Assembly (NCBI GenBank): GCA_036504035.1
Contig: DASXVV010000002.1
Location: 124,001 to 188,000, forward strand
DNA length: 64,000 nucleotides
Source of the DNA: Candidatus Deferrimicrobiaceae bacterium
GTDB lineage: Bacteria; Desulfobacterota; Deferrimicrobia; Deferrimicrobiales; Deferrimicrobiaceae
Reading direction: 5' to 3'
Position numbers and translations under genes: made by a program
Shown: piece by piece, positions 2,173 to 6,169 of the stretch
How the letters are laid out: every line of letters begins with the position of its first letter
Position numbering within the stretch: position 1 is the first letter of the stretch
Notes under the pieces: model-generated
The model's database searches: none
What the model was told of the DNA's origin: nothing
What the model saw: the letters and a program-made list of their open reading frames with translations, nothing else

Positions 2173-4590
2173 TCAACCCGGGGATGCCGGCCGACCGCCG
2201 ATCGCGACCCGGTAGTCATCGCCTTCCCATGCGTTCCGGAGCGGCCACCGGAACGTGAAGCGGATCGCGCCGCCATCCTCCGTGCCAGTCGGGATATCGG
2301 CATAGTCGATTCCCAGCGCGGTCGAAAGCGATTCGGTATCCGTCGCGGTACGCCAGTCGTCGCGGGACCAGCGCAGGAGGAACGGCTCCGGCGCCTGCAC
2401 CCGAAGCGTCGCGCCGGGCGAAACGGCGCGCACGTGCCGGTTCGGCTTCCAGATTTCGATGGTCTGACAGCCCCGCCGGTCGGCGATATAACGGGCCGCC
2501 ACCTCGGGGATGCAGTCGAAGACGCGCCCGTCGCGCCGGGACCGAAGCAGCTTGATGTATTCGGCGTGCGCCCACATGAGCGGGCGGGCGGAACCGGTCG
2601 GGCGCCCGAGATACATGTGGAGGTCGGGCCGGTCGGGCTCGTCCCACACCTGCTCGGGCAGGAGGCCGGTCGGAATGGCGAACGCCTCCATCGCCCGGAG
2701 ATACGGTTGGGGATCCTCGCCCGCGGCCAGCGCGTAGTGCCCCCGCTCGCCGGTCAGGAGCGGCCAGGCGCGCCCCTTTCCCCACCCGGTAAACGGGCCG
2801 CCGTCCTCCCGCTGGCCATAGGCGTCGTGGTTGTAGCGGCGCCACACCGGACCGCAGCCCGTCTCGACCTTGAGCACGGCGTCGATCACGCGCAGGGAAT
2901 CGAGCACGACCGGGTCGTCGGGGCGGCGGATGCCGTACCGCACCAGCTCGAGGAAGCCGGCGTCGACGATCTCCCGGGCCGGGAATCGCCAGGGCGTTCC
3001 GGGCGGGCGGTTGTTGAGCACGAGCACGCCGCAGTCGGGATCCTCGACGGGCGAGGGATCGTCCACGTCGACCGGCAGGATGCGGATGTAGTGCCGCGGG
3101 ATCCCGGGCACCAGGGTGCCTGCGCGCGTGACGGTCCACGCCTCGACGTGGCATTCGAGGAAATCGGCGTACTCCTCGAGGAAGCGCGCCGTCGCCTCGT
3201 CGCCCCGCCTGCGGGCGAAGGAAGCCGCGCAGACCAGCGCCGCGATGTTCGCGGCAAGCGTCGACGGGGAATATCCGGAGGCCTCCTCCCACCGCTCCTG
3301 CTGCGTCACGGGGCCATGCGCCACCAGGTATCCGGCTGCCCTGCGCACCATCGGCCAGGGATCGAACTCTCCCAGCGCCCCGGCCCGTTCGAGGTGCCAG
3401 GCGAGCAGGATCGGGAACGCCACCTCGTCGAGCTGGACGCCTTGCCAGTAGGGCGTCCCGTCGATCCAGAAGTTCTGCGGGAATCCGCCGTCCTCCTGCT
3501 GGCTGACCGCCAGGTAGACGAGCGCACGCAGCGGGGAATCGGTGTTGCCCGCGGCGAGCAGCCCCAGCGCCGTGTTGACGAGGTCGCGCGTCCAGACCAG
3601 GTGATACCCCCCCTGGTCCCGGTCGTCCTTCGCCTCTCCCCAGGGAATCGAGAGCGACGCGATGAAGGCGCCCGGGTAGGTCTTGTCCTCGTGGCCGAGC
3701 AGCAGGCTGTAGCTGCCGTGATAGAGGTCGCACTCCTCGCAGTCCGCGTCCTCGAGCGGCAGGATCTTCCGGCCGGTGCGGCTCCATTGCCCCGTGAACC
3801 GCTCGAGGTGCGCCTCGAACGGCACGGCCAGCGACTCGAAGAGCGCCGTCGCGGCGTCGTGCAGCCCCCGGCCGAACGCCAGCCCGACGGTGAACGCCCG
3901 GCAGCCGTCGAGCGCCAACTCGCCCGTCAGCGCCAGGTTGCCGTCGCGCGCGACGTCGAATTCCCATTCAATCCGGCCATGGGCCGCCAGATCCGTCCAT
4001 CCGTCGCTGGCGCCGACATACCCGGCCGAAAGCTTCGAGAACGGGACGCCCGCAGCGACCACGAGCCACGTCCCGTCCTTCTCGGCGGCCAGGATTCGCC
4101 GCCCGGCAACCTCGAGAACGTAGCCGTTGTTGCCCCATCCTCCTCCCCCGAGGTGGGGGGCGCAGAGCAGGTGGAACTTCAGGCGGGAGAGGACGCTCTC
4201 GTCGCCGGCGAGATAGGTCCGCTGCAGCACTACGGGCAAGTGCGGGTCGCAGATGATCTCCTTGAGGATCTCGTACCGGCCTTCCCGGTCCTTGTTGGTG
4301 ATCCGGTAGCCCAGGACGTGCCGGGAGAGCCGCTGGGTCGTCGTTCGCAGGTGCCTTTTCTCGTCTTGAAACAACCCATTCCCGTCGGTCACAAGGAACT
4401 GGAGATCGCGGATCTGGGGGCGATCGACGGTCGGGTAATAGACCTCGGTGATGACGCCGTTCCACAGGGTGAACCAGACGCGGCTCGAACTGGAATAGGC
4501 CGTTCCGACGCCGTCCTTCGCCCCCTGGGTCCAACGGGGCGGAATGCCCGGCCACCCGAAGGCCTCCCGGCCCGGCCCGATCACTCCCAT
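2173..4590 (-). CDS. Glycoside hydrolase family 15 glucoamylase/glucodextranase-like
   Basis: 805-aa bacterial-type GH15 enzyme releasing glucose from alpha-glucans. The N-terminal beta-supersandwich (residues 1 to about 270, with NGVITEVYYPTVD) is followed by the (alpha/alpha)6 barrel. Two family-typical acidic motifs are visible: WEEASGYSPST near residue 435 (general acid Glu) and PLMWAHAEYIKL near 673 (general base Glu). WTRDLVNTALGLLAAGN and GGFPQNFWIDGTPYWQGVQ are also characteristic. No signal peptide is evident, so it probably acts in the cytoplasm, for example on glycogen. The ATG has a GGAGG about 5 nt upstream and follows the rhodanese stop by 18 bp, suggesting co-transcription. Confidence 0.93.
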   Translation of the reverse strand: MGVIGPGREAFGWPGIPPRWTQGAKDGVGTAYSSSSRVWFTLWNGVITEVYYPTVDRPQIRDLQFLVTDGNGLFQDEKRHLRTTTQRLSRHVLGYRITNKDREGRYEILKEIICDPHLPVVLQRTYLAGDESVLSRLKFHLLCAPHLGGGGWGNNGYVLEVAGRRILAAEKDGTWLVVAAGVPFSKLSAGYVGASDGWTDLAAHGRIEWEFDVARDGNLALTGELALDGCRAFTVGLAFGRGLHDAATALFESLAVPFEAHLERFTGQWSRTGRKILPLEDADCEECDLYHGSYSLLLGHEDKTYPGAFIASLSIPWGEAKDDRDQGGYHLVWTRDLVNTALGLLAAGNTDSPLRALVYLAVSQQEDGGFPQNFWIDGTPYWQGVQLDEVAFPILLAWHLERAGALGEFDPWPMVRRAAGYLVAHGPVTQQERWEEASGYSPSTLAANIAALVCAASFARRRGDEATARFLEEYADFLECHVEAWTVTRAGTLVPGIPRHYIRILPVDVDDPSPVEDPDCGVLVLNNRPPGTPWRFPAREIVDAGFLELVRYGIRRPDDPVVLDSLRVIDAVLKVETGCGPVWRRYNHDAYGQREDGGPFTGWGKGRAWPLLTGERGHYALAAGEDPQPYLRAMEAFAIPTGLLPEQVWDEPDRPDLHMYLGRPTGSARPLMWAHAEYIKLLRSRRDGRVFDCIPEVAARYIADRRGCQTIEIWKPNRHVRAVSPGATLRVQAPEPFLLRWSRDDWRTATDTESLSTALGIDYADIPTGTEDGGAIRFTFRWPLRNAWEGDDYRVAIGGRPASPG

Positions 4591-4608: not shown

Positions 4609-4929
4609 TCATGCGGCGAACGGAAAGCCCAGCGCCTTCCAGGCCTCGACGCCTCCCAGGAGCGCCTTCGCATTCACGAACCCTTCCCCGATGTATTTCC
4701 CCGCCTGACCGGCGGAGGTCGCCTCGGTGGGTCAGGCACAATAGAAGACGATTTCTTTCCTCCGGTCGAGCGTCGGGACCAGCGCCCGGAACTCCTGAAG
4801 CGAAATCGCGCCGTCAAGCCTAAGGCTGCGATACTTGTCCTCGTCCTCGTAGGCGCACACCAGGAGCGCCTCGCCCCTTTGCGCCTTGATCCTCGCGTCC
4901 GACGGGTGAATCCGGGGGACTTCCCACAT
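4609..4929 (-). CDS. Rhodanese-like selenoprotein (in-frame UGA = Sec66)
   Basis: Single-domain rhodanese-like protein of 106 residues if the TGA at 4732-4734 is read as selenocysteine. The ATG at 4929 has a strong AAGGAGG upstream. The frame reads ...EIVFYCA, then UGA, then PTEATSAGQAGKYIGEG...LLGGVEAWKALGFPFAA and a TGA stop at 4609-4611. Related proteins carry Cys in this CACP.EATSA-type active loop, so Sec replaces the second Cys. The sequence after the UGA is a complete rhodanese C-terminus (LLGG..AW) in the same frame, and a SECIS-like hairpin lies just after the UGA. A stop-truncated 65-aa pseudogene is the alternative and seems much less likely. Sec machinery genes are not in this window. 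Confidence 0.85.
4699..4717 (-). promoter_or_regulatory. Bacterial SECIS-like hairpin after the UGA codon
   Basis: In mRNA sense, starting 15 nt after the UGA, CUCCGCC pairs with GGCGGGG (7 bp with one G-U), closing a 5-nt loop GGUCA. SelB-binding bacterial SECIS hairpins lie at about this distance inside the coding region and carry a GGUC-type apical loop, as in E. coli fdhF. Folding here is by eye. It supports reading the UGA as selenocysteine. Confidence 0.75.
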
Positions 4930-5086
4930 GGACTGCCTCCTTTTTGGCTGGTGCACGGCTCCCTGCGGAGGAGCCCGCTTTCCGGTTAGATTGCCGACAG
5001 GCGGACATTGGTTCCCGACATTTTTTTGAGGATATACTCGTAATCGCGGCGCCGCGGTGGAAGCGGGCGCGCAAGGCGGGGGAAGC

Positions 5087-6169
5087 ATGGCGGAATTCCC
5101 GGATCCGGGCCCGGTGGCCCTCTTCGGCTCGGGCGAGACCTCGCGGGTCGGCGGCAACGTGTTCGAACGGCTGGCCGCGCGCGGCGGAGGCCACGGCCCT
5201 TATCGCATTTCGATCCTCGAGACCCCCGCGGGCTTCGAGCCGAATTCCGACCGCGTCGCCGGGCGCATCGCCGATTTCCTCCGCCGGCGCCTCGAAAACC
5301 GCCGCCCCGAGATCGAGATCATCCCCGCGCGGCAGCGCGACACCCCCTTCAGCCCCGACGATCCGGCATTGCTTGCGGGCCTGCTCCGCGCCGACCTCGT
5401 CTTTCTCGGGCCGGGCAGCCCGACCTACGCCGTCCGCCAACTTCGGGACAGCCTCGCGTGGCACACCCTCTTGGCGCGTCACCGCCTGGGAGCGACGACC
5501 GTCTTCGCCAGCGCGGCGATGATCGCCATCGGGGCGAGCGCCCTGCCCGTCTACGAGATCTACAAGGTCGGGGAGCCGGTGCACTGGACGGAGGGACTGG
5601 ACCTGTTCGGGGCCTACGGGCTCTCGCTGGCCTTCGTCCCGCACTGGAACAACACCGACGGCGGCGAGGAGCTCGACACCAGCCATTGCTACATGGGGGA
5701 AAAGCGGTTCGAGGCGCTGCGCGCCCTGCTCCCCCCCGACCGGACGATCGTCGGCGTCGATGAGAGCACGGCTCTGGTGGCGGAGCTATCGGCAGGGCGG
5801 GGGGAAGTCGTCGGGCAGGGGACGGTCACCATTCTCCGGGGCGGGCGCGAACAACGGTTCGCCGCCGGTCAATCGTTCGACCTGGGCATCCTCGGGCCTT
5901 TCGACAAAAGAAGCGGGCGCGGGGCGATCCCTTCGGCAGTATGGGACGCGGCGGTCGCCGCCACGGCGTCTCCCGCCGTCCGGCCGCCCGTCGTCGTCCC
6001 CGACGAGGTCAAGACGCTGGTTGAGGCGCGCCAAACCGCGCGGGAACGGCACGACTGGGGGGAGGCCGACACGCTGCGGAAGCGGATCGGCGCGCTGGGC
6101 TGGAAGATCACCGACACCCCGGAGGGTCAGGTCATCGAGGCGCGGCCGGCCGGCGCCTCCGACGAATGA
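5087..6169 (+). CDS. S51/cyanophycinase-like protein with CysRS-like C-terminal segment
   Basis: About 360 aa from the ATG of MAEFPDPGPVALFGSGE; the frame is open back to 5057. The N-terminal about 240 residues resemble the class I glutamine-amidotransferase-like fold of peptidase S51/cyanophycinase: an opening VALFGSGE strand, LVFLGPGSPTYAVRQL, and a candidate nucleophile Ser in TTVFASAAMIAIG. The last about 45 residues (VEARQTARERHDWGEADTLR...GWKITDTPEGQVIE) match the helical C-terminal region of cysteinyl-tRNA synthetase, although no catalytic CysRS domain is present. Substrate unknown. It is divergent from the selenoprotein rhodanese. The fold call is moderate; the function is unassigned. 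Confidence 0.75.
   Translation: MAEFPDPGPVALFGSGETSRVGGNVFERLAARGGGHGPYRISILETPAGFEPNSDRVAGRIADFLRRRLENRRPEIEIIPARQRDTPFSPDDPALLAGLLRADLVFLGPGSPTYAVRQLRDSLAWHTLLARHRLGATTVFASAAMIAIGASALPVYEIYKVGEPVHWTEGLDLFGAYGLSLAFVPHWNNTDGGEELDTSHCYMGEKRFEALRALLPPDRTIVGVDESTALVAELSAGRGEVVGQGTVTILRGGREQRFAAGQSFDLGILGPFDKRSGRGAIPSAVWDAAVAATASPAVRPPVVVPDEVKTLVEARQTARERHDWGEADTLRKRIGALGWKITDTPEGQVIEARPAGASDE

Follow-up and report, generated by a model that had tools for sequence, protein, structure and literature searches.

A predicted selenocysteine-containing rhodanese in a Candidatus Deferrimicrobiaceae genome and its CAY subfamily

A rhodanese frame interrupted by a single UGA

The window, that is, the whole 64,000-nucleotide stretch of DNA that was analyzed, carries a short rhodanese gene preceded by a ribosome-binding site and followed by a glucoamylase gene (Table 1). 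The first-pass annotation had reported an in-frame TGA at 4732-4734 without giving a strand. The gene's strand is the minus strand, and the TGA is present there as codon 66 of a frame that starts at ATG 4929-4927. This UGA (4734-4732) is the sole interruption of the 106-residue rhodanese frame, and 40 codons run from it to the closing stop, TGA 4611-4609. When the UGA is counted as a residue, the protein matches the Pfam Rhodanese family (PF00581) at 25.8 bits against a gathering cut-off of 22.2 (E 1.4e-5). The earlier statements that the remaining 40 codons complete a rhodanese and reach a normal stop, and that a product cut at the UGA would have 65 residues, thus agree with the frame.

An AlphaFold2 model built from a 27-sequence alignment shows a confident rhodanese fold (pLDDT 94.3, pTM 0.88), and its matches in the PDB are rhodaneses, GlpE and YgaP included. 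C25, C64 and residue 66 are among the invariant residues of that alignment. The protein has no visible signal peptide.

The glucoamylase gene is co-directional with the rhodanese gene, as previously described, with its ATG at 4590, 18 nt past the rhodanese stop. Because this adjacency is kept in the congener only, it is uninformative on function, and the glucoamylase is probably not part of the selenoprotein system. Clustering of the gene neighbourhoods yielded no partner kept outside close relatives, and none that would name a substrate. The divergent neighbour (window 5087-6169, plus strand) encodes 360 residues; its C-terminal domain resembles that of cysteinyl-tRNA ligase (CysS_C), and it matches cyanophycinase weakly.

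Table 1. Features of the locus, with window coordinates and the basis for each assignment.
Feature	Position	Strand	Basis
Predicted selenoprotein gene, 106-residue rhodanese with Sec66	4609..4929	-	Pfam, relatives, alignment, AlphaFold
UGA codon predicted to be read as selenocysteine, residue 66	4732..4734	-	UGA in 65/65 Sec-form relatives; two others have a Cys codon
Codon of Cys64, the first CxU chalcogen (replaced by Sec in UxU relatives)	4738..4740	-	Alignment
Cys25 codon, subfamily-invariant (LLVCAY), replaces Asp of the canonical DVR motif	4855..4857	-	Alignment against NF041203 members
Ribosome-binding site AAGGAGG, 6 nt before ATG	4936..4942	-	Read from sequence
Predicted bacterial SECIS hairpin, 7 bp, GGUCA loop (loop 4710-4706)	4699..4717	-	Compensatory changes; agreement with bSECIS constraints
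GH15 glucoamylase / glucodextranase neighbour	2173..4590	-	Adjacency found only in same genus

Conservation and predicted decoding of the UGA

A single-sequence scan of genome contigs returned no relatives, but an alignment-based scan did find them. The gene is present in 26 of 395 genomes of the phylum, with the TGA inside every one among the matches listed. Across the phylum genomes and a GTDB scan, we collected 65 distinct genes in which UGA occupies the residue-66 position and two in which a cysteine codon does (L115 and L116, both Planctomycetota, with TGC/TGT). Of the two scan patterns, LLVCAY leaves residue 66 free, so the search itself does not simply produce the rarity of cysteine forms. 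The gene occurs, among others, in Deltaproteobacteria, Geobacter relatives, Rokubacteria, Nitrospirota, Synergistota, Acidobacteriota and Planctomycetota MAGs, as well as in two named strains that appear to be cultured, Geomesophilobacter sediminis Red875 (L068) and Desulfofustis glycolicus DSM 9705 (L113). A UxU motif, with selenocysteine predicted also at the position of Cys64, is found in six relatives (L053, L072, L076, L104, L112 and L114). The first-pass annotation had placed the TGA exactly at the active-loop cysteine of the family. Homologues do carry selenocysteine (65 genes) or cysteine (two genes) at residue 66, but Cys64 is a second active-loop chalcogen, either invariant or replaced by selenocysteine.

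Comparison of the window with its congener gave dN 0.19 and dS 1.27 before the UGA, and dN 0.10 and dS 0.55 after it. The latter values indicate that the downstream codons are protein-coding and under purifying selection, and the lower dS after the UGA is as expected for a coding stretch with an overlaid RNA signal.

Such a signal had been proposed, namely a 7-bp hairpin with a GGUCA loop 15 nt past the TGA, and it was found at 4717-4699. Its sequence is CUCCGCC-GGUCA-GGCGGGG, with the first base at the 15th nucleotide past the UGA, and it folds with -12.6 kcal/mol; only 1 of 200 shuffles was as stable. Stability alone proves little, because the wider region folds with an unexceptional energy (z -1.3), and the case for the hairpin rests on comparison and covariation across relatives. 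Bacterial SECIS elements (bSECIS) are expected to have an apical loop of 3-9 nt, a stem of 4-16 bp, a G at loop position 1 or 2, a UGA-to-loop distance of 16-37 nt and an MFE <= -7.5 (PMC13188914). The hairpin agrees with every one of these constraints (loop 5 nt, stem 7 bp, GG loop start, 21 nt, and the energy given above).

Covariation was counted in the alignment past the UGA. The most informative pair, 18/30, lies between the third positions of two codons, both of them synonymous wobble positions. Among the 65 sequences it is C-G in 32, U-A in 29, U-G in two and unpaired in two; none of 2000 shuffles paired as often as the observed 63/65. Because it shows the largest departure from independence among the 1066 third-position pairs in the gene, a common G+C content is no explanation. 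Pair 21/27 is C-G in 64 sequences and U-A in one, and every one of the 65 has G at loop position 2. In a 25-sequence count, the covariation score was 0.275, versus 0.147 when shuffled and at most 0.160 with slid partners. The outer pairs 15/33 and 16/32 are formed in only 27 and 44 of the 65 sequences, which reduces the conserved stem core from 7 to about 5 bp. The hairpin is lost in both cysteine orthologues.

The decoding machinery was sought in the host genome (G000; 3.17 Mb, estimated 100% complete), following the check suggested for selA, selB, selC and selD, and all four genes are present. The tRNA-Sec (selC) scores 70.1 bits, over the Rfam cut-off, and ARAGORN also calls a tRNA-Sec with anticodon UCA. 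Rfam and tRNA scans of the whole window gave no match; selC sits elsewhere in the genome. Genes for SelB and SelA were found, and the SelD gene carries one in-frame TGA (L038, G000:C6:172184-172990), so that SelD is probably itself a selenoprotein. SelB was detected in each of the 31 Sec-form genomes examined; of the two Cys-form genomes, one has it and the other gave no match. This association is consistent with selenocysteine decoding rather than decisive for it. The two Planctomycetota cysteine orthologues, which lack the hairpin and one of which lies in the genome without detected SelB, may record a switch from selenocysteine to cysteine.

Selenocysteine insertion generally competes with termination, and one may therefore ask whether the UGA is a working stop, with a 65-residue half domain as the main product and occasional readthrough by near-cognate tRNAs. 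This is very unlikely: the half domain would be missing the helices that follow the active loop in the AlphaFold model, the codons past the UGA are constrained as protein, the hairpin obeys the bSECIS rules, and SelB accompanies the Sec form in every tested genome. We rejected the reading on the downstream constraint, the hairpin covariation and the conservation of the TGA. A pseudogene, in which a cysteine codon decayed to TGA and left the downstream frame as a remnant, has in its favour only that one in-frame stop splits the frame. It is less probable still and was rejected, given that 65 distinct genes across several phyla share the TGA, the purifying selection past it and the covarying hairpin. 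Least probable of all is that the TGA is a misreading of TGC/TGT introduced in sequencing or assembly; this was rejected because independent assemblies, both distant and congeneric (L018/L062), share the TGA at the same codon. The refuting conditions set by the first-pass annotation, checked through the sel genes, the homologues and the congeneric assembly, thus all came out in favour of its reading. Taken by sequence comparison, the gene is almost certainly a genuine selenoprotein gene, and residue 66 is its predicted selenocysteine.

Relation to known selenocysteine rhodaneses

Predictions of selenocysteine-containing rhodaneses date back to 2005 (PMC1088965), and a CxU rhodanese with the model NF041203 is already listed in reviews (PMC9312934, PMC13188914). 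That model, rhodanese_LYCAU or 'rhodanese-related (seleno)protein', corresponds to rhodanese form 3, CxU (PMC13188914). Its members share with the present gene a single rhodanese domain, a YCxU (or YUxU) motif with selenocysteine at the same alignment position, a SECIS-like hairpin past the UGA, and the occurrence of UxU variants. For instance, in the NF041203 members L129, L135 and L137 both active-loop chalcogens are UGA-encoded, as they are in the UxU relatives of the present subfamily.

Despite this likeness, the gene does not reach the NF041203 cut-off of 115 bits, with 55.9 bits for a match confined to the C-terminal half, and the best of the 27 relatives (E 1.6e-19) also falls far below it. 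As judged by eye, the NF041203 members retrieved for comparison start with a signal-like segment and keep the DVR motif, whereas the present subfamily lacks the segment and has CAY instead. In a 96-row tree with few columns and weak inner forks, the present family falls on one side of a branch with support of 100/100, and NF041203 is separate (97/96). Some genomes (e.g., G024, G211 and G253) carry members of both families. Because of the sub-threshold scores, the clade of its own, the differences in motif and N-terminus and the co-occurrence in single genomes, we place the gene, by sequence, as a predicted CxU rhodanese selenoprotein like NF041203 but in a separate subfamily. It is possible that the present subfamily was sighted earlier under the broad label COG0607.

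A further type with selenocysteine at the second position of C-x-U and a SECIS-like hairpin consists of DedA (VTT)-rhodanese fusions from related genomes (L028, L029, L032-L034, L036 and L037). These differ from the present gene in being membrane fusions (shown for L028), in keeping a canonical D-L-R motif and in lying in another part of the tree. In all seven (L028:1-1821, L029, L032, L033, L034, L036 and L037), a rhodanese domain with an FYC[TS]U motif and its in-frame TGA, followed by a GCGCC-loop-GGCGC hairpin, lies at the end of a long frame; in L028 a DedA/VTT domain precedes the rhodanese. L031 is a cysteine version of this type. A DedA-rhodanese selenoprotein is absent from the rhodanese forms found in PMC13188914, and the literature searched did not bring DedA, rhodanese and selenoprotein together.

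Among rhodaneses of known structure, GlpE, the YgaP domain and BH2092 (PDB 1gmx, 2mrm and 3nhv) have the same fold and a cysteine at the position of Cys64 (shown for BH2092), but they lack selenocysteine, and in the solved sequence that matches best (6mxv) the active loop has two residues fewer.

Active-site loop and proposed chemistry

The two extra loop residues, seen in the HMMER alignment with 6mxv, affect how the active site is read. If the alignment is anchored on the strand that precedes the loop, the canonical catalytic cysteine falls on Cys64; if it is anchored on the helix and GG motif that follow the loop, that cysteine falls on Sec66. Since either residue can be aligned with the catalytic cysteine, the nucleophile could be Cys64 or Sec66.

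The comparison supports insertion of selenocysteine at residue 66 by SelB and tRNA-Sec, with translation continuing to a complete single-domain rhodanese. The protein would be a cytosolic sulfur/persulfide redox enzyme, with Cys64 and Sec66 side by side on the lengthened active-site loop. The Sec66 selenolate would attack the sulfane sulfur of a persulfide, polysulfide, thiosulfate or similar donor; Cys64, perhaps with help from Cys25, would resolve the Se-S intermediate as a selenenylsulfide, and a cellular reductant would re-open it. We hold the chances of this persulfide or selenenylsulfide redox chemistry of Cys64/Sec66 to be about even.

The same gene, with the same selenocysteine insertion, may instead do another job, using Cys64 and Sec66 as a redox pair in a reaction like that of a thiol peroxidase, an oxyanion reductase or a disulfide reductase. 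The lengthened loop, the resemblance of the CxU pair and its UxU variants to redox motifs, and CAY in place of the DVR motif all speak for such a role, but the fold is near that of sulfurtransferases. We regard this alternative as a serious one, if somewhat less probable than the proposed chemistry. More tentatively still, the CAY rhodaneses may form a previously unmodelled, nearly selenocysteine-obligate subfamily in which Cys25, Cys64 and Sec66, sometimes with two selenocysteines, act as a redox relay with non-classical chemistry. Taken as a whole, the best explanation of the locus is a genuine selenoprotein, a selenocysteine-decoded single-domain rhodanese, to which we assign a probability of roughly 90%.

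Because gene callers stop at the UGA, members of this subfamily are likely absent from annotations or shortened in them. The occurrence of the gene in two named, apparently cultured strains makes the prediction testable. The scarcity of cysteine versions points to an important part for selenium in the reaction.
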